Shown here in pieces: positions 1,555 through 15,953 of a stretch of DNA of 34,429 nt (its first letter is position 1; each line of letters starts with the position of its first letter). Both the position numbers and the translations under genes were made by a program. The notes beneath the pieces are model-generated. The model worked only from the letters and a program-made list of their open reading frames with translations. It was not told the DNA's origin and did no database searches. The DNA is taken from the NCBI GenBank assembly GCA_937958345.1, contig CALGNW010000103.1, positions 1-34,429 on the forward strand, given 5' to 3'. The stretch comes from an uncultured Neomegalonema sp. (GTDB lineage Bacteria; Pseudomonadota; Alphaproteobacteria; Rhodobacterales; Rhodobacteraceae).

Positions 1555-2247
1555 TCAGGTCTGCGTGACTTGCAGCAATTCTTCGCGCTTGTTGATGTGG
1601 TAAAACCCGTCAACGCGCGCGATCAGACCCGCGCGTTTCCACTGGTTGAGAACCCGGCTGACGTTCTCGCGGCTGGCGCCGATCATCGCCCCCAGCTCTG
1701 ATTGGGTCAGCTTGTACTCAATCCGCACAGCGCCGGACACCATTTCGCGCCCGAAGCCGTCAGACAGCCGGATCATGGCCTGTGCTAACTGACCGGGCAG
1801 CGCGAGAAAGTCGCGTGCGGCCAGAGAATCGTTCGTTGCCCGCAGGCGTCCGGCCATCATGGTCAGCATATGCCGGTAAATCGCGGGGTTCTCATCCGCA
1901 TAATCAAAGAATGCCTTGCGCGAGCAGAACATTACTTTCGTCGGCTTCAGGGCGGTAATCGTAGCCGAGCGCGGAAATTCATCGAAGATCGCCATTTCCC
2001 CGATGACTTCGCCCTCGCTGAACAGGGCAATCAGTTGTTGCATGCCCGCCGGTGACAGACGCGTGGCCTTCAGGCCGCCGACCTCGACGGCATAAAACCC
2101 GTCTGCGTCGTCCCCCTCGGAAAACAGAACATCATTAGGGTCGAGCTGGATGGATCGGGCGCGTTTACCCAGCGCCTCGGGCGCATCCTGCGGCGCGCCC
2201 GTGAACATACGTGTTCTGGCAAAGACTTCTGCGGCGTCTGAACGCAA
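1555..2247 (-). CDS. Crp/Fnr family transcriptional regulator (cNMP-binding domain plus HTH)
   Basis: cNMP pocket-like GEMAIFDEFPRSATI and CRP-type HTH LTQSELGAMIGASRENVSRVLNQW. Start is TTG at 2247 (the family N-terminus aligns upstream of the first ATG at 2208). Confidence 0.88.
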   Translation of the reverse strand: MRSDAAEVFARTRMFTGAPQDAPEALGKRARSIQLDPNDVLFSEGDDADGFYAVEVGGLKATRLSPAGMQQLIALFSEGEVIGEMAIFDEFPRSATITALKPTKVMFCSRKAFFDYADENPAIYRHMLTMMAGRLRATNDSLAARDFLALPGQLAQAMIRLSDGFGREMVSGAVRIEYKLTQSELGAMIGASRENVSRVLNQWKRAGLIARVDGFYHINKREELLQVTQT

Positions 2248-2307
2248 AGCTAGTACCCCACTCGAATCGCCCTATGAGGGTACATCAAAAGCGATGAAAC
2301 GCGTAAA

Positions 2308-2323
2308 TGTGATTTTGATCACA
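2308..2323. promoter_or_regulatory. Perfect CRP-type palindrome TGTGA-TTTTGA-TCACA
   Basis: Read directly: TGTGATTTTGATCACA, about 61 bp upstream of the Crp/Fnr start codon. Confidence 0.7.
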
Positions 2324-2451
2324 GTCTTTGCGACGCTCCCGTGACACATTTATCCGGTCGGATTTGCTGGGATGCTGGGGAGCGAGGGGCCTGGCGAATC
2401 CGCACTTTGTAGCCAAAAAGCGTAGTGTAATGTTGCTGTTTGCGACGGCTT

Positions 2452-2471
2452 AACCCCCGAAAGGGGGTTTT
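2452..2471. terminator. Hairpin AACCCCC-GAAA-GGGGGTT with a short T run on the + strand
   Basis: 7-bp perfect stem with GAAA tetraloop followed by TT; lies 33 bp beyond the sel1-gene stop. T run is weak. Confidence 0.4.
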
Positions 2472-2503
2472 GTCGTTCTTGGCTGGGGTCTGGGATCAGG
2501 GCG

Positions 2504-6849: not shown

Positions 6850-7929
6850 ATGCGCGGCCTGAGAGTTCTAATCCTAGTTTGCGCCACTGTGTCGGCGATG
6901 GCTGCCATGTGGATGATGCGGAGTGCCCTGCAAAGTCAGGCCAGCCTGCCAAACCCGCAGCAGCAAATCGCGGCGGTGCAGCCCGTCGCATCGCCCGTTC
7001 AAGCACCCGCGACGTCGCAGGTGCTGGTGGCAAACCGCGAAATTCCAACGGGCCGTGTGCTGGGTCCGGAAGATCTGCGCTGGCAGTCATGGCCTGCCGA
7101 CTCTGTGTCGGACAACTTCTACACCGAGGGTGAAGATGTTGACGCCATCGAGACTCTGACGGGCTCGGCTTCGCGCCTTGTCATCGTCGAGGGCGAGCCG
7201 ATCACGAGCAACAAGATCGTCGATCTGAACGGCACGGGCATGCTCGCCGCGTTGCTTCGTCCGGGCATGCGCGCCATCTCGATCCCGATTTCCGAGATTA
7301 CCGGTGCAGGCGGCTTTATCCTGCCCGGCGATTTTGTCGACATCCTCCTGACGCGTCAGATCACCGTCAAAGACGTTGACGAAGAGACGGGCGAAGTTCT
7401 GAACACCACCGTGCTGAACCAGACCGACACCATTATGAAAACGGTCCGGGTTCTGGCGATTGACCAGCAGCTCAACGAGACTGAAAATGCTGCGTCGGTC
7501 GGCAACAGCGCGACCCTCGAGCTGAACCCGGAGCAGGCCGAGCTGATCACGCTGACCCGCCAGATGGCACAGCAGGAGCGCGGTTTCCTGACACTCAGCC
7601 TTCGCAGCTTCAAAGAGATGGTCGACGAGTACGGCGACGACATCGACAAGGTAATGCCGGTGACGGTTCTGGATCTGCACGCGATGGTCAAAGACCGTCT
7701 GGCAGCAGCCGACGAATCCAAAGCCAACTATCTGCGCTATGCCAAGAAGAAGGCGGAAGAAGCCAGACTTCTCGGTCTTGAGCCGGAAGACATCGAGCCT
7801 GTCGAAACACAGGCAGCCGAGGTTGCACCTGTCGCTCAGCCAGCGCCGCCTTCGACGGTCACGCTGATCCGTAACGGACGCCCGATCGTTGTCCACACCA
7901 TCACGCCGAACAGCGCGGGGTCCCAATGA
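6850..7929 (+). CDS. cpaB: Flp pilus assembly protein CpaB/RcpC
   Basis: QVLVANREIPTGRVLGPEDLRWQSWP SAF domain; LRPGMRAISIPISEITGAGGFILPGDFVDILLTRQ; in a Tad gene cluster. Confidence 0.92.
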   Translation: MRGLRVLILVCATVSAMAAMWMMRSALQSQASLPNPQQQIAAVQPVASPVQAPATSQVLVANREIPTGRVLGPEDLRWQSWPADSVSDNFYTEGEDVDAIETLTGSASRLVIVEGEPITSNKIVDLNGTGMLAALLRPGMRAISIPISEITGAGGFILPGDFVDILLTRQITVKDVDEETGEVLNTTVLNQTDTIMKTVRVLAIDQQLNETENAASVGNSATLELNPEQAELITLTRQMAQQERGFLTLSLRSFKEMVDEYGDDIDKVMPVTVLDLHAMVKDRLAAADESKANYLRYAKKKAEEARLLGLEPEDIEPVETQAAEVAPVAQPAPPSTVTLIRNGRPIVVHTITPNSAGSQ

Positions 7930-10115
7930 GCATCCAGCTAAAAGCCACCCGCGCCCTTTCTGAAACCGGAGTTGAGATCATGCGCCGATCAACGACAAAA
8001 GCCGCCGCTGCCATCTTGGCTCTTAGCGTCGCACTTCCGGCTCTTGCCAATGACGGCGACTATTTCATCGGCCCGGACGGTTCGGTTGAATATCGCGACA
8101 GCAGCGAGAACGCCGCGCCGACATCTGCCGCGCCGCTTGCGGATATGATGACCACGAAGCCGTCTTATGTGACGATGCAGCCGGTCGATGATTTTGTTGA
8201 TGCTCCGGCAGTCGCGGCGAGCCCGGTCATTCCGGCTGCACCCGAGGCGGTATCCTTTGTACCGACCGAAAGCGTTGCCTTCGATACGGTCCCTTACAAT
8301 GCCGACCCCGTGAGTGTTTCGGCACCGGTCGTTCAGGAACTTTCGATGGAAGTTCTGACCGATGCCAGCGCCGATGTCGCGCCGGAACCGTTCTATTCCG
8401 AGCCTTATGCCGCGCCGATGATGACTGAAATCATGTCGGCTCCGGTGATGGCTCAGCCGATGGTGATGGAGACGTATACGCAGACCCCTGAGATGGTTGC
8501 TCCGGTTATGGCTGCGCCCATGATGGTCGAGCCAGTGATGGCTGCGCCGGTCATGGCTGCACCTGCGCCGGTTGCTTACGAGCCTGCGCCGCAGCCCGCA
8601 ATGATCGAATATGTTGATGCGCCTGTCGCACAGACCTTCGAAGCGGATTACAGCACGCTCGTCGATCCGACACCGTTGTCGTCCATCAGCGCATTGCCGA
8701 TGAACGCGCCATCGGGTCTGTCCCTTGCCGAACGCGGCGACGGTGGCTATGGCCGCTCGACCATTGACCGCGGCGGCGAAAGCGAAGCGGGACAGTCAAC
8801 GGATATCTTTGTTTCGAAATCCGCGATCGTAAACCTGCCCGCCGAAGCAAGCGAAGTCAGCGTTTCCGACCCGACAGCGGTCCGCGCCGTTCTGCGCACC
8901 GCGCGTCAGATTGTTCTGATCGGACTGCGCGTTGGATCGACGAACGTGATTGCGTTTGACGACAACAACAAACAGATCCTCAGCCTCGACATCAACGTCC
9001 GCTACGATCTGCGTCCGTTGCGTGCGGCGATCAAACGTAACTTCCCCAACACGCTGGTCGAAGTCGAGTCGCTGCTTGGCGAGGTCGTTCTGACCGGCGC
9101 AGCAAGCGGCCCGGGTGAAGCAACCGAAATCCGCAATCTCGTGCGCCGGTATCTTTACTCGGCCATGCTCGGTGCGGGCATCGAAGCCGATCCGAACTCG
9201 ATTGAATTCGTTGACCGCCTTGCGACCGACAGCGACGATCAGGTTCTGTTGAAAGTCCGCGTTGCTGAAATGCGCCGCAGTGTCGTGCGCCAGTTCGGCG
9301 TCGATTGGAGCCTTGCAAGCAACGTTGCGTCGAATGTTCTGACCAACGGCCTGCCGGGTGCAGTCAGCGCGTTTGACTCGATCAGCAGCAACAGTGGCGG
9401 ACTGTCGGCAAACATTGCCGGCTCGGTCGGCAGCACGGACTTCGGTTCGCTGGTCAAAGCCCTCGAGCGTCACAGCGTCATGCGCACCCTTGCCGAGCCG
9501 ACATTGACGGCGGTTTCGGGTGAAACGGCCAGCTTCCTTGCCGGTGGCCAGTTCCCGTTCCCGACGTCGGCCGATGACGGTGAGATCGGCTACGAGTTCC
9601 GCGACTTTGGTGTGGCCCTCGAATTCACGCCGGTTGTTGTCGGCGATGGCCGCATCAGCCTGCAAATCGCTACGGAAGTCAGCGAGCTGACGACCGAGGG
9701 CGAAATCCGGATCAACGACGGTCTTACGATCCCCGGTATTTCGGTCCGCCGCGCCAACACGACGGTCGAGCTTCCTTCGGGCGGCACGATGTCCATTGCC
9801 GGAATGCTCCTGCAACGCGACTCGGCTTCGCAGAGCGGTGTTCCCGGTATCAAGAATGTGCCGGTTGTCGGTCAGCTTTTCGCATCGAACGACTTCCAGC
9901 GTGACGAAACCGAACTGGTTATCCTTGTGACGCCTTATGTTGTGAAGCCGGGTCAGGAGCGGGACTTCCGCCTGCCGACCGACGGATTTGCTCCGGCAAG
10001 CGACATGGACTTCTACCTGCTTGGCCGCCTGCACAAAGTGTACGGCGCGGGACGGCAGGACGTAGCAGCAGCCCGTCAGGCGCTTAACGCGCCCCTCGGC
10101 TTCATCATCGAATAA
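7926..10115 (+). CDS. cpaC: Flp pilus secretin CpaC/RcpA with Met-Ala-Pro-rich N-terminal linker
   Basis: C-terminal secretin domain VLLKVRVAEMRRSVVRQFGVDW...RTLAEPTLTAVSGETASFLAGGQFPFP...ELVILVTPYVV. Alternative start at 7980 gives a clean signal peptide MRRSTTKAAAAILALSVALPALA. Confidence 0.92.
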   Translation: MSIQLKATRALSETGVEIMRRSTTKAAAAILALSVALPALANDGDYFIGPDGSVEYRDSSENAAPTSAAPLADMMTTKPSYVTMQPVDDFVDAPAVAASPVIPAAPEAVSFVPTESVAFDTVPYNADPVSVSAPVVQELSMEVLTDASADVAPEPFYSEPYAAPMMTEIMSAPVMAQPMVMETYTQTPEMVAPVMAAPMMVEPVMAAPVMAAPAPVAYEPAPQPAMIEYVDAPVAQTFEADYSTLVDPTPLSSISALPMNAPSGLSLAERGDGGYGRSTIDRGGESEAGQSTDIFVSKSAIVNLPAEASEVSVSDPTAVRAVLRTARQIVLIGLRVGSTNVIAFDDNNKQILSLDINVRYDLRPLRAAIKRNFPNTLVEVESLLGEVVLTGAASGPGEATEIRNLVRRYLYSAMLGAGIEADPNSIEFVDRLATDSDDQVLLKVRVAEMRRSVVRQFGVDWSLASNVASNVLTNGLPGAVSAFDSISSNSGGLSANIAGSVGSTDFGSLVKALERHSVMRTLAEPTLTAVSGETASFLAGGQFPFPTSADDGEIGYEFRDFGVALEFTPVVVGDGRISLQIATEVSELTTEGEIRINDGLTIPGISVRRANTTVELPSGGTMSIAGMLLQRDSASQSGVPGIKNVPVVGQLFASNDFQRDETELVILVTPYVVKPGQERDFRLPTDGFAPASDMDFYLLGRLHKVYGAGRQDVAAARQALNAPLGFIIE

Positions 10116-10130
10116 GAGGGATTTGCAGAG

Positions 10131-10517
10131 ATGAAAACCAACAAAACCATCGTCCGCATGGCCGCGCTGTCTGCTCTGGTCACGCTTGGCGCCTGTCACA
10201 CCGCGGATATTCCGCAACCGCCGCAAGCCGCCCATGATCCATGGGAAACTTACAAGCTGGGCACGGTCTATGACTGCGATCAGATTGAAGTCGGGGACAT
10301 TCGCCTCAACCCTCAATCGCTGCCGACAGCAGACTTCGGTTGTGCGCACCAGAGCAACATCACGCTGATGGCGGCGAAACCTGAAGACCTGCATACGCCG
10401 CGGGCCATGACGCCAGCAGATCCACGCCGGATCCAACGGGTCTACGAGGCTTACGGTGCTGGTGAAGATACGACGACGGCCCGCCGGGCCGAAGGCACAC
10501 AACAGCTGATCGAGTAA
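10131..10517 (+). CDS. Short CpaD-like pilus lipoprotein
   Basis: 128 aa; lipobox LVTLGAC; CpaD-like signature ADFGCAHQSNITLMAAKPEDLHTPRAMTPADPRR; between cpaC and cpaE. Confidence 0.75.
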   Translation: MKTNKTIVRMAALSALVTLGACHTADIPQPPQAAHDPWETYKLGTVYDCDQIEVGDIRLNPQSLPTADFGCAHQSNITLMAAKPEDLHTPRAMTPADPRRIQRVYEAYGAGEDTTTARRAEGTQQLIE

Positions 10518-10556
10518 TGGACAAGCGGGCATAGCCCAAGCAAGGAGAACGCCCCC

Positions 10557-11858
10557 ATGTCTCAGGCGGCACATAAACAAGACTACGACGACGAGGAACA
10601 GAGTTTCGGTGGTCCCATCGAAACGCTCATCCCGCGGATCGACATCGAGGCCTATTGCGAGACGGCGGCTATGGCCACTGCCTTGCAGGACTCGGCCTAT
10701 GACCGCCGGATGACGCGGACTTCGGTTGCTGTTTCCATGGGCGGCATCGGCAAAGCCGCCGGCATGTATCAGGAAACGACGACGCCGCACCTGCTGATCC
10801 TGGAGACCAAGGAAACCGGTCTTGCGATCTTTGACGAGCTGGAAGCGCTCGCCGAGGTTTGTGATCCCGATACCAAGGTCATCGTCTGCGGACCGTCAAA
10901 CGACGTGACGCTGTATCGCGAGCTAAAGCGTCAGGGCGTCGACGAATACGTCGTCTCGCCCGCCGCGCCGATGCAGATTATCGAGGCGATCTCGACGGTC
11001 TTTTCCGACCCCGAAGAAGCCCCGATTGCGCGCACGATCGGTTTCCTCAGCGTCAAAGGCGGCGCTGGTGCATCCACGTTGTCGCATAACTGTGCGTCGA
11101 TGATTGCGAATGACGAACAAAAAGAAGTTATTCTCGTCGACCTCGATATGCAGTTCGGCACAGCGGGTCTTGACTTTAACCGCGAACCAACGCGGTCGGT
11201 CATTGATGCGCTGGGTTCGATTGACGAGCTGGATGACGTCAAGCTTCAGCGTTTGCTGGTCGAGCATGATGATTATCTGTCAATCCTCGCCGCACCGTCG
11301 TCGCTGGAAGTGTCCAGCGAGTTCGAAGAATCGGCGATTGTCGAGATGATCGAGGTTGTGCGCAAGTCGTCCGACTATGTCGTCTTTGACATTCCGCATA
11401 TCTGGACGCCCTGGGTTCGCACGGCGATCCTTCAGATGGACGAGATCGTTCTGGTCTCGACCCCTGAACTTGCTGCCCTGCGGAACCTGAAGGCGATGTA
11501 TGATCTGCTGGTACAGCGCCGCCCGAATGATGCTGCTCCGCGTATCATCATCAACCAGGTCGGCATGCCGAAGCGCCCTGAGATCGCCGAAAAAGACATC
11601 GTCGAAATCGTCGGTGCCGAAGTCGAGGTTTCCATTGCGTATGACGCAACGCTGTTCGGTTCCGCTTCGAACAACGGTCAGATGCTGAACGAGATCAACG
11701 GCAAGCACGAAACGGTCGGTATTCTCACCGATCTGAATGACTCGCTGATCCGCAAATCCGGCGCGCTGATTAAACGGCGCAATGCTGCGAAGGGCGGAAA
11801 GGTCAAAGACTTCCTGGATGGGCTTCGCGGTAAGTTCTCCAAGAAAAAAGCCGACTAA
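10557..11858 (+). CDS. cpaE: Pilus assembly ATPase CpaE/TadZ
   Basis: Receiver-like N-terminus, then MinD/ParA-like ATPase TIGFLSVKGGAGASTLSHNCASMIA...VILVDLDMQFGTAGLD. Confidence 0.92.
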   Translation: MSQAAHKQDYDDEEQSFGGPIETLIPRIDIEAYCETAAMATALQDSAYDRRMTRTSVAVSMGGIGKAAGMYQETTTPHLLILETKETGLAIFDELEALAEVCDPDTKVIVCGPSNDVTLYRELKRQGVDEYVVSPAAPMQIIEAISTVFSDPEEAPIARTIGFLSVKGGAGASTLSHNCASMIANDEQKEVILVDLDMQFGTAGLDFNREPTRSVIDALGSIDELDDVKLQRLLVEHDDYLSILAAPSSLEVSSEFEESAIVEMIEVVRKSSDYVVFDIPHIWTPWVRTAILQMDEIVLVSTPELAALRNLKAMYDLLVQRRPNDAAPRIIINQVGMPKRPEIAEKDIVEIVGAEVEVSIAYDATLFGSASNNGQMLNEINGKHETVGILTDLNDSLIRKSGALIKRRNAAKGGKVKDFLDGLRGKFSKKKAD

Positions 11859-12034
11859 GAACAGGCGGGCGTTCTGACTTTCCCGTTGCTCCGGCTGCGT
11901 CTTCGTTCGCGGGGCGACGGGAAGTCCCCGCCGGTTTGATCCGGTAACTAACATTCGTTGCCGACCTCAGAAGGGGTCAGCTTCACCTGCACCCATAGGA
12001 GGGTGCGCCCGACCAAGGATTGCGGAAGGCGACT

Positions 12035-13843
12035 ATGTTCAGCAAACGCTCAGAAGATGCTTCGAAGCTGCGGAAGGATGGCGACGATTCGCTGCCGGCG
12101 ACGATGGAACAGCCGAAGAAAACTCCGCAAGCGCCGCGTCGCGCCCCGCCGCCGCCGCCGCGCCCCGGTGCTGCCGCTGCGAAAATGCCGCGCCCCGAAG
12201 CGCCGAAGGTCAAACCGCGCCCGCTCGATGCGCTCAATGTTGATCTCAGCCAGTCCAAGGCGCCGCCTCGGTCGGTTGTCGAAGGAACTGCCGACGCGGT
12301 ATCGCGGAGAAGCGCGGCTGTTGCCGAACCCGAGTATGAAGAATTCGAAACGCCCATGGTGCGCGAGAGTTCCGACATCGATATGCGTGATATTGCCCGT
12401 CGCAAAGCCTCCGAGCTTGCCGGATCAGCGCCGCTTGAAATCGAAGACAAGCGCGAGGGCGGTTTCGGCGCGAATAAAGGCCGCGGCAAAACAAAAATCA
12501 AAGACGAAGGACCGGCCCAACCCCTGACACGCGGCGATCAGGGACGTGAGGGTATGCACAATCAGGCATACTACGACCTGAAGTCGGAAATCTTCGAAGC
12601 CCTAATCGACGCGATGGATATGGGGCGGATTGTGTCCCTGCCGCGCGAAGATGCCGAGAATGAAATTAGCCAGATCGTCAATGAGATCATTGGGGTCAAG
12701 GGACACATCATGTCCATCGCCGAGCAGAAACGCTTGGTCGAAGACATTTGCGATGACGTGCTGGGCTATGGCCCGCTTGAGCCGTTGCTCGAACGCGATG
12801 ACATCGCCGATATCATGGTGAACGGGGCCGAGCAGGTCTACATCGAGGTCGAAGGCAAAATCGAGCTGACGAACATCCGCTTTCGTGACAACCAGCAACT
12901 GCTGGAAATCTGTCAGCGCATGGTGTCGAAGGTCGGTCGCCGTGTCGATGAAAGCTCGCCCATCTGTGATGCGCGCTTGCTCGACGGTTCTCGTGTGAAC
13001 GTGATTGCACCGCCGCTGGCGATTGACGGCGCGACACTCACCATTCGTAAGTTTAAGAAAGACAAGCTCAAGCTGTCGGATCTGATCAAGTTCGGCGCAC
13101 TGACCGACGAGGCCGCCGTTGTGCTTCAGATTGCAGCGGCCTGTCGCTGTAACATCCTGATCTCCGGCGGTACGGGTTCCGGTAAAACGACGCTGCTCAA
13201 CTGTCTGTCCGGTTTTGCCGGCGACGACGAGCGCATCATTACCTGCGAAGACTCGGCTGAATTGCAACTGCAACAGCCTCACGTCGTCCGGCTTGAGACA
13301 CGCCCCGCCAACCTCGAGGGCAAGGGCGAGGTCAGCATGCGCGACCTGGTCAAAAACTGTCTGCGTATGCGTCCGGAGCGGATCATCGTGGGTGAGGTGC
13401 GTGGCCCCGAAGCCTTTGACTTGCTTCAGGCCATGAACACGGGTCACGACGGCTCGATGGGAACGCTCCACGCCAACTCTCCGCGTGAGGGTCTGTCGCG
13501 TCTGGAATCGATGATTACGATGGGCGGCTTTGCACTCCCGTCCAAGACCATTCGCGAGATGATCGTTTCGGCGGTCAACGTGGTCGTTCAAGCCCAGCGT
13601 CTGCGCGATGGTTCGCGCCGGATTACGCACATTTCGGAAGTTCTCGGAATGGAGGGTGACACGATCATCACGCAGGATCTCGTCAAGTACAAAGTTACCG
13701 GCGAGGACGAGAAGGGCAAGCTGATCGGCAAGCACGTCTCGACCGGCATCGGACAGCCGAACTTCTGGGATCGTGCGCGCGGGTTTAACCGTGACGTCGA
13801 ACTGCAGGACGCTTTGGCGAATATGGAAGAAGTGGTGGATTGA
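12035..13843 (+). CDS. cpaF: Secretion ATPase CpaF/TadA (CpaF family)
   Basis: Walker [60 protein letters not shown]. Start at ATG 12035 (MFSKR) preferred over 12020. Confidence 0.95.
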
Positions 13844-13893
13844 TCCACCCGCGCCCGGACTATCCGGACCGCAACTAAGGAAGGCGACGCAGC

Positions 13894-14883
13894 ATGTACT
13901 CAACGCTCGCAGAAACGATCGGCACTCCCGGATTGCTTGCCATGATGGGCATTCTGACGTTCACAGCGGTCTATTCGGTTCTGTACGTTTTGACAGCACC
14001 GAATCCCGTCGTGTCAGGGGCATCGCGGATCAGGTCGGACGCGAAGACGACTGTCGGCAAAAAATCCAAGGGCGTCGACCGCCGCAAGGAAATCCAGAAC
14101 CAGCTCCGCAAGCAAGAAGAGATGCGGAAAAAGTCTGCCAAAGCGCCGCTTAGCGTTCTGATGGAGCGCGGCGGTTTGCAGGGCAGTGTTGCTGCGCTCT
14201 ATACAAAGTTCACGATCTTCGGTGCGCTGATGACGGGCGCGCTGATGTTCATGGGTATCAAGCCGCTGTTTGCCGTGGCCGCACTGCCGGTCTGTGCAGT
14301 GATCCTGACGCCGAAATTCGTCAAGTACCGCATCAATCGCCAACAGAAGAAATTCATCGCCGAATTCCCGAACGCGATTGATATTCTGGTGCGCGGCGTG
14401 CGGACCGGTCTGCCGGTGAACGAGGGCATGCGCGTCATTGCCCGCGAGGTTCCCGAGCCGGTCAGCTCGGAGTTCCGCATCATCACTGAATCCACCGGTG
14501 TCGGTGTGACGCTCGAAGATGCTTTGTCGCGGTTCTATAACCGGATGCCGCTGTCGGAAGTGAACTTCTTCAATATCGTTCTCGCGATTCAAAAGCAGAC
14601 CGGCGGTAACCTTGCGGAAGCCCTCGGCAACCTGTCGACGACGTTGCGTGAACGCAAAAAGCTGAAGAACAAAATCAAGGCGCTGTCATCCGAGGCGAAG
14701 GCTTCGGCTTCGATCATCGGTTCGCTTCCGTTCCTGCTGGCAGTTGTCCTGTTTCTGGTTGCCCCGCAATACATCTCGCTTTTGTTCACCGAAACCACGG
14801 GCCACTACATGATTGCCGGCGGTCTGTTCTGGATGGGCTGCGGGATCTTTATGATGAAGACGATGATGGACTTCGAAATTTAG
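13894..14883 (+). CDS. tadB: Type II secretion F-family inner membrane protein TadB
   Basis: FIAEFPNAIDILVRGVRTGLPVNEGMRVIAREVPEPVSSEF; GNLAEALGNLSTTLRERKKLKNKIKALSSEAKASA; C-terminal TM helices. Confidence 0.93.
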   Translation: MYSTLAETIGTPGLLAMMGILTFTAVYSVLYVLTAPNPVVSGASRIRSDAKTTVGKKSKGVDRRKEIQNQLRKQEEMRKKSAKAPLSVLMERGGLQGSVAALYTKFTIFGALMTGALMFMGIKPLFAVAALPVCAVILTPKFVKYRINRQQKKFIAEFPNAIDILVRGVRTGLPVNEGMRVIAREVPEPVSSEFRIITESTGVGVTLEDALSRFYNRMPLSEVNFFNIVLAIQKQTGGNLAEALGNLSTTLRERKKLKNKIKALSSEAKASASIIGSLPFLLAVVLFLVAPQYISLLFTETTGHYMIAGGLFWMGCGIFMMKTMMDFEI

Positions 14884-14978
14884 CGTTCCGCGCTCGCAGC
14901 ACTCTGTTTCAGGCCCGCCCGGCTTGAGACAGGGGTGCGCTACCGGACCGATCTCGAAACGCTTTTGAGGAACCGACA

Positions 14979-15953
14979 ATGGATTTCTTTTCTTCTCTCC
15001 CTTCGGCTCAGGCCGTCTATGCGGTCATTCTGGCCGGGATTGCCGTCTTTTTGCTCTGGATGGCCTTCTTTCCGGCACAGGCTGTCGGGTCCGTCAGCAA
15101 GCGCCTGAAGTCGATCCGTGACCGCCGCGAGGCGCTGAAACAACAGCACCAGATCAACGGCGGTAAAAAAGGATCCAAGCGCCGCGGAGAGCTGGACGAG
15201 GGCACGGTGCGTGTCATGCGCAACACGGTTGAAAAGTTCCGCATGGAAGAAATGCTGAACAACACCGAGTTGAAGCAAAAGCTGTCGCAGGCAGGCTATC
15301 GCGGTAAAAAAGCCCCTATCGTCTTTTTGTTCTTCAAGATCGTAATGCCGGTTCTGCTGTTTATCGCCGCGCTGCTTTACTACTGGCTGATCTACAAGGG
15401 CGCATTCCAGCCAGCCCGCCACGGGCTGATCTCGCTGATCGTTGCCGGTGCAGGCTATATGCTGCCCGGTGTCTGGATGAAAAACGTCACCCAGAAACGT
15501 CAGGTCAAAATGCAGCGTGCTTTTCCGGATGCGCTCGACCTGATGGTGATTTGTGTCGAATCCGGCATGTCGGTCGAGAAATCGTTCCAGTGGGTCTCCG
15601 AAGAGATCGCGGCTCAAAGTCAGGACCTTGCGGAAGAGGTTGCGCTGACCTGCGCCGAGCTATCGTATCTGGGTGACCGCTCGAAAGCATACGAGAACTT
15701 TTCGATCCGGACCGGCATGCCGCAGGTAAAGGCGCTGACCGGGACGCTGATTCAGGCCGAGCGGTACGGTACGCCCGTCGGTTCCGCGCTGCGTGTTCTG
15801 TCTGACGAAAGCCGAAGCGAGCGGATGTCGGTCGCGGAACGCAAGGCGGCGGCTCTGCCCGCCAAGCTGACCGTTCCGATGATCCTGTTCTTCCTGCCTG
15901 TGCTGTTTGTCGTTATTATCGGCCCCGCCTATCTCCAGTTCCAGATCGGCTAG
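14979..15953 (+). CDS. tadC: Type II secretion F-family inner membrane protein TadC
   Basis: AFPDALDLMVICVESGMSVEKSFQWVSEEI; GTPVGSALRVLSDESRSERMSVAERKAAALPAKLTVPMILFFLPVLFVVIIGPA. Confidence 0.93.
   Translation: MDFFSSLPSAQAVYAVILAGIAVFLLWMAFFPAQAVGSVSKRLKSIRDRREALKQQHQINGGKKGSKRRGELDEGTVRVMRNTVEKFRMEEMLNNTELKQKLSQAGYRGKKAPIVFLFFKIVMPVLLFIAALLYYWLIYKGAFQPARHGLISLIVAGAGYMLPGVWMKNVTQKRQVKMQRAFPDALDLMVICVESGMSVEKSFQWVSEEIAAQSQDLAEEVALTCAELSYLGDRSKAYENFSIRTGMPQVKALTGTLIQAERYGTPVGSALRVLSDESRSERMSVAERKAAALPAKLTVPMILFFLPVLFVVIIGPAYLQFQIG

Follow-up and report, generated by a model that had tools for sequence, protein, structure and literature searches.

What does a perfect CRP-type operator do in front of a gene that itself encodes a Crp/Fnr-family protein? 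The window in which this question arises is a stretch of 34,429 nucleotides, contig C103 of a draft genome (3.25 Mb, 85% complete) whose closest named relatives are uncultured Neomegalonema genomes. Orthologues of the Crp/Fnr-family gene (hereafter crp) were found at 11 further loci in the same genus, the window making 12; identity to the window protein was 55–83% (79–83% in three orthologues, 55–60% in eight). The window's own clade of four genomes is referred to as clade 1, and the other eight genomes as clade 2. Outside the genus, matches to the regulator did not exceed 32% identity, short partial ones excepted. Elsewhere in the window, positions 6850–15953 hold a gene order resembling, by reading, a Tad-type pilus operon (CpaB, CpaC, CpaE, CpaF, TadB and TadC-like). 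Coordinates of the features discussed are given in Table 1.

Table 1. Positions of the regulator gene, its operator and the predicted divergent element within the window.
Feature	Position	Strand	Basis
Crp/Fnr-family transcription regulator, 230 aa, TTG start	1555..2247	minus	ORF and Pfam
Recognition helix S192-R193-E194-N195-V196-S197-R198	1654..1674	minus	alignment
T138-N139, equivalents of CRP T127-S128; T-N as in GlxR	1831..1836	minus	alignment, PMC4254451
Cyclic-nucleotide phosphate-binding cassette, residues 83–94 (G83, E84, R93, S94)	1966..2001	minus	alignment to E. coli CRP
CRP-type operator TGTGATTTTGATCACA	2308..2323	none	exact match and conservation
Conserved TG, predicted −15/−14 of extended −10; offset 19–20 from operator	2342..2343	plus	flank alignment, PMC2859248
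Predicted divergent structured RNA	2357..2477	plus	start and end predicted; structure conservation
5′ hairpin, 13-bp stem, loop GCTGGGGAGCGAGGGG invariant in four genomes	2359..2402	plus	folding, alignment
3′ terminator-like hairpin; core stem 2452–2469, then TTGTCGTT	2444..2477	plus	folding; clade 2 covariation

Judged by its sequence, the product of crp is an ordinary CRP-type regulator. It has the N-terminal cNMP-binding beta-roll and C-terminal Crp-type helix-turn-helix that define the CRP/FNR superfamily, both recognised by Pfam over cut-off (cNMP_binding PF00027, 1.8e-20; HTH_Crp_2 PF13545, 1e-14). The TTG start is backed by the clade alignment and by ribosome-binding sequences in relatives, and is favoured because the downstream Met14 is not conserved. 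A reading of the window made from its letters alone (the sequence-only reading) had described a protein with SRENVSR in its recognition helix and GE...RS in its cNMP pocket, and both are present as claimed, at residues 192–198 and within IGE...PRSA (residues 82–95) respectively; the helix is unchanged throughout the genus orthologues, R193, E194 and R198 corresponding to R180, E181 and R185 of E. coli CRP. The score against the CRP equivalog model (NCBIfam PRK11753) was 69 bits, so far under the curated cut-off of 266 that the regulator is better called a CRP-type relative than an orthologue of the enterobacterial protein. Nor did it reach the cut-offs of the Fnr, FixK and FnrL models (54, 37 and 22 bits, against 228, 300 and 300).

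An exact TGTGA-N6-TCACA palindrome had been placed about 61 bp upstream of the Crp/Fnr start, and this is where it lies: TGTGATTTTGATCACA is the sole match without mismatch in the window and is 61 bp distant from the start at 2247, the interval 2248–2345 spanning start to operator. From base composition, a sequence of 34.4 kb should hold ~0.02 exact matches and one of 3.25 Mb should hold 1.8. Moreover, TGTG(A/C)-N6-(T/G)CACA was found with zero or one mismatch upstream of 11/11 orthologues; across the 12 loci seven palindromes are perfect and five carry one mismatch, and the N6 core differs freely among loci. At any one locus, an upstream region of this kind would contain a copy with no more than one mismatch by chance in ~1% of cases, and since a copy is present at all 11 orthologues the palindrome cannot be put down to chance. 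The pairing of operator with recognition helix, as originally proposed, is supported across the genus: the site is kept at every orthologue, the helix is invariant, and the only near-complete genus genome to lack the gene (G002, 98% complete) has zero exact sites in a genome scan.

When both flanks were aligned on the palindrome, the side divergent from crp showed TG at offset 19–20 in 11/12 loci, the twelfth being one base off, and A at offset 23 in 10/12; in controls, random flank resampling gave a maximum of 8 loci for the TG and whole-clade shifts a maximum of 10. No position-locked element was seen on the crp side, where the best dinucleotide recurred in 6/12 loci. A site centred at −41.5 occupies the class II CRP-dependent position (PMC2859248). 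With the operator so centred, the TG at offset 19–20 would fall at −15/−14, so that the spacing fits class II geometry for the predicted divergent promoter; by this measure the operator appears positioned to activate a divergent RNA in class II fashion. The −10 hexamer following the TG in the window (2345–2350) is poor, CACATT, as is common at activator-dependent promoters, and a simple promoter scan found none.

The predicted transcript start (~2357) lies at the base of a 13-bp 5′ hairpin. In four genomes the plus strand keeps 13/13 pairs of this stem, between three and six being G-U, whereas the minus strand keeps 7–10/13; folding energies are −24 to −28.5 kcal/mol and −5 to −13 kcal/mol respectively; covariation in the window's 5′ hairpin is weak, there being only four sequences. 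At the other end, a T-rich tail accompanies the window's 3′ hairpin on the plus strand alone; the hairpin lies at the same offset in the window and G001. The eight clade 2 genomes have a hairpin at the same offset, with 87.5% of cells paired (75.8% when shuffled, at most 55.5% when slid) and two-sided changes in 11/15 pairs, which is strong covariation. These clade 2 3′ hairpins are without strong U tracts, L009 and L011 have no clear 3′ terminator, and the clade 2 5′ hairpin is not sequence-homologous to that of clade 1. Searched against Rfam 15, the divergent RNA gave no match at gathering score, weak matches being at chance level, and a covariance model built from clade 1 found nothing in the 197 further genomes of the order that were searched. 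A small protein encoded in the element was ruled out, as a one-base insertion in the loop of G001 breaks the frame. In clade 2 (L012–L019), a GTTGYGTA repeat directly precedes the 3′ hairpin; it was rejected as a protein-binding direct repeat, given a spacing that ranges over 20–22 bases and a pattern search across the genus that matched nowhere but at the crp locus of G003.

The reading that we favour, with somewhat better than even confidence, is that a CRP-type activator at one operator controls two divergent units, combining class II activation of a small RNA with control of its own gene. The dimeric activator, very probably loaded with a cyclic nucleotide, would bind TGTGA-N6-TCACA, and a single dimer at 2308–2323 would serve both transcription units. 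On the plus strand, standing at −41.5 of an extended −10 promoter, it would activate a putative structured RNA of ~120 nt (~2357–2477); on the minus strand, standing just upstream of the crp promoter, it would autoregulate crp, either by assisting polymerase at that promoter or by drawing it towards the divergent one instead. What the sequence shows is the operator and its conservation, the residues of helix and pocket, the fixed spacing and a conserved RNA structure; ligand, binding, transcript and the direction of regulation are predictions. Taken singly, the operator probably activates the divergent small RNA. Autoregulation, which was the sequence-only proposal, is likely but tells an incomplete story, in that the fixed spacing is on the divergent side and not on the crp side.

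A simpler account would be that the palindrome is the operator of crp alone, activating or repressing, and that the divergent sequence is conserved as DNA, for example through contacts with polymerase or the regulator, and gives rise to no stable RNA. The occurrence of the site upstream of crp at every locus suits this account, as do TAGGAT/TAAGAT-like hexamers at offset 25–30 on the crp side of four to five loci, and the weakness of the divergent-side −10. However, the best crp-side dinucleotide reaches only 6/12 loci against 11/12 on the divergent side, the hairpin, whose G-U pairs exist only on the plus strand, is strand-specific, and the 3′ hairpin covaries. We consider plain autoregulation unlikely, though a serious contender.

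As to the ligand, the proposal that the regulator responds to cAMP or cGMP stands in part. Binding of a cyclic nucleotide is plausible from the alignment: G83, E84, R93 and S94 are invariant among the orthologues and shared with E. coli CRP (phosphate/ribose contacts G71, E72, R82 and S83), and the T-N pair is as in GlxR and Mycobacterium tuberculosis CRP. Among these key contacts N139 (Ser128 in E. coli CRP) is also invariant across the genus, but T138 (T127 in CRP), Thr in the window, is Ala in three orthologues (G010, G004 and G009), and the ligand may be either cAMP or cGMP. No class I cyclase was found in the four genomes searched, and G005, a 99% complete genome that carries the regulator along with six sites, gave no class III or class I match. 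A regulator in at least one genome that shows no recognisable cyclase of either class, together with Ala at T138 in three orthologues, calls for caution in assuming cAMP. Cyclase genes and regulator do not track each other, G002 having no regulator but four class III matches, G005 the regulator but no match. In the window's genome a single protein with a class III cyclase domain was found (L038, minus strand, G000:C204:12979-13461, in a 604-aa frame); it has LVDIAGDG at the place where a Lys before GDG is usual in adenylate cyclases, and its product is uncertain because this Lys is missing.

These same three points (Ala at T138, G005, and the GDG motif of L038) speak for a regulator that binds its site constitutively or with some other ligand. 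Set against them are the four pocket residues shared with E. coli CRP, an invariant N139 whose counterpart Asn in the C helix of GlxR contacts cAMP (PMC4254451), the draft state of the genomes, and the scope of the cyclase search, which covered class I and class III. A regulator indifferent to cAMP and cGMP is, on this evidence, distinctly unlikely.

The gene upstream of crp varies: it encodes a Sel1 protein in three genomes and is plsB in six, gshB in two and pepA in one. Both orientations occur, and palindrome, TG and RNA are retained beside all four. As plsB genes elsewhere in the genus are without the divergent element, and as the element is kept through four neighbours, the RNA unit belongs to crp and not to the neighbour. 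It might nevertheless be supposed that the divergent transcript is the 5′ leader (attenuator) of a neighbouring gene rather than a free small RNA: plsB is divergent and 224–301 bp away in six genomes, pepA is on the divergent strand in G001, and the clade 2 hairpins are missing strong U tracts. However, in the window and in G012, G005, G003 and G007 the next gene runs in the direction of crp, leaving nothing to lead into; having Sel1 or gshB upstream, these five genomes present no adjacent divergent gene, so that the RNA is not a leader there. The absence of the element at other plsB genes and the confinement of the T-rich tail of the window's hairpin to the plus strand also weigh against a leader, which we regard as improbable. 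That the regulator gene travels with a structured small RNA, divergent and activated by CRP in class II fashion, through one shared operator, as a two-gene unit kept beside four neighbours in one alphaproteobacterial genus, is a tentative proposal, in which our confidence falls a little short of even.

The sequence-only reading had also suggested that a genome scan with TGTGA-N6-TCACA would define a regulon, and such a scan of 14 genus genomes recovered 38 exact sites, compared with 10 for a reversed control pattern. Roughly 18/31 sites away from crp are intergenic, as judged with a crude ORF caller and by hand. That the operator is a chance match, or the site of another Crp/Fnr protein, for example of FNR type, is very improbable indeed: TGTGAT-N4-ATCACA is two changes off the FNR consensus TTGAT-N4-ATCAA, and these genomes hold further Crp/Fnr proteins, but the site is conserved at all 11 orthologues, G002 lacks both gene and exact site, and the R-E...R helix of the regulator is CRP-type.

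Sites were found at the petA promoter in two genomes and near amidinotransferase-like or arginase-family genes in three. In the latter, exact palindromes lie upstream of an amidinotransferase-like gene in two genomes and of an arginase-family gene in the third (L071:2804, L081:4656 and L087:2767), hinting at control of guanidino compounds. In the former, a conserved palindrome (L089:2726-2741 and L094:2758-2773) lies between petA, encoding the Rieske protein, and a divergent 131-aa ORF that has no Pfam match, with TGATTATA at exact class II spacing on the side of the 131-aa ORF. Class II spacing was rejected as a general rule, since among the other intergenic sites TG with a good −10 occurred at this petA-divergent promoter only.

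The closest precedent for the arrangement is E. coli crp, for which Okamoto and Freundlich (1986) and Hanamura and Aiba (1991), both cited in PMC9600491, reportedly described autoregulation with a CRP-activated divergent RNA, as is predicted here; in the present case, however, the predicted divergent RNA is structured and conserved and carries a terminator-like hairpin of its own, and a single operator stands between the two starts. The regulators are alike in TGTGA-N6-TCACA recognition, the R-E...R helix and the cNMP pocket, but share 27% identity, and Ser128 of the E. coli protein is Asn here. Like the CRP-controlled small RNAs Spot 42 and CyaR, the present RNA is small and structured, with control by CRP predicted; it differs from them in sequence and location and has no Rfam match. 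By sequence, the closest solved structures are those of Corynebacterium GlxR and Mycobacterium tuberculosis CRP (Rv3676), with E values of 1e-29 to 7e-33. Both share the T-N pair in the C helix, although they are actinobacterial and have RETVNK in the helix that reads RENVSR here; the GlxR site is TGTGANNTANNTCACA (PMC4254451), while the spacer here has no fixed TA. Clr of Sinorhizobium meliloti (7PZA), an alphaproteobacterial cNMP receptor with a G-E-R-S pocket (PMC10127613), matches the regulator at 1e-17 and has the same pocket, but has T-T in its C helix and reads DNA through R195/N199, in place of T-N and R-E...R.

Regulator and operator are of known type, and it is the shared divergent RNA that is the plausible novelty. 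Were the proposal true, an uncultured alphaproteobacterial genus would gain a defined CRP-type regulon that includes a small RNA arm, and the logic of E. coli crp, in which the regulator switches on transcription divergent from the gene that encodes it, would be seen outside the enterobacteria. This would allow a test of whether divergent transcription linked to crp recurs as a means of control.
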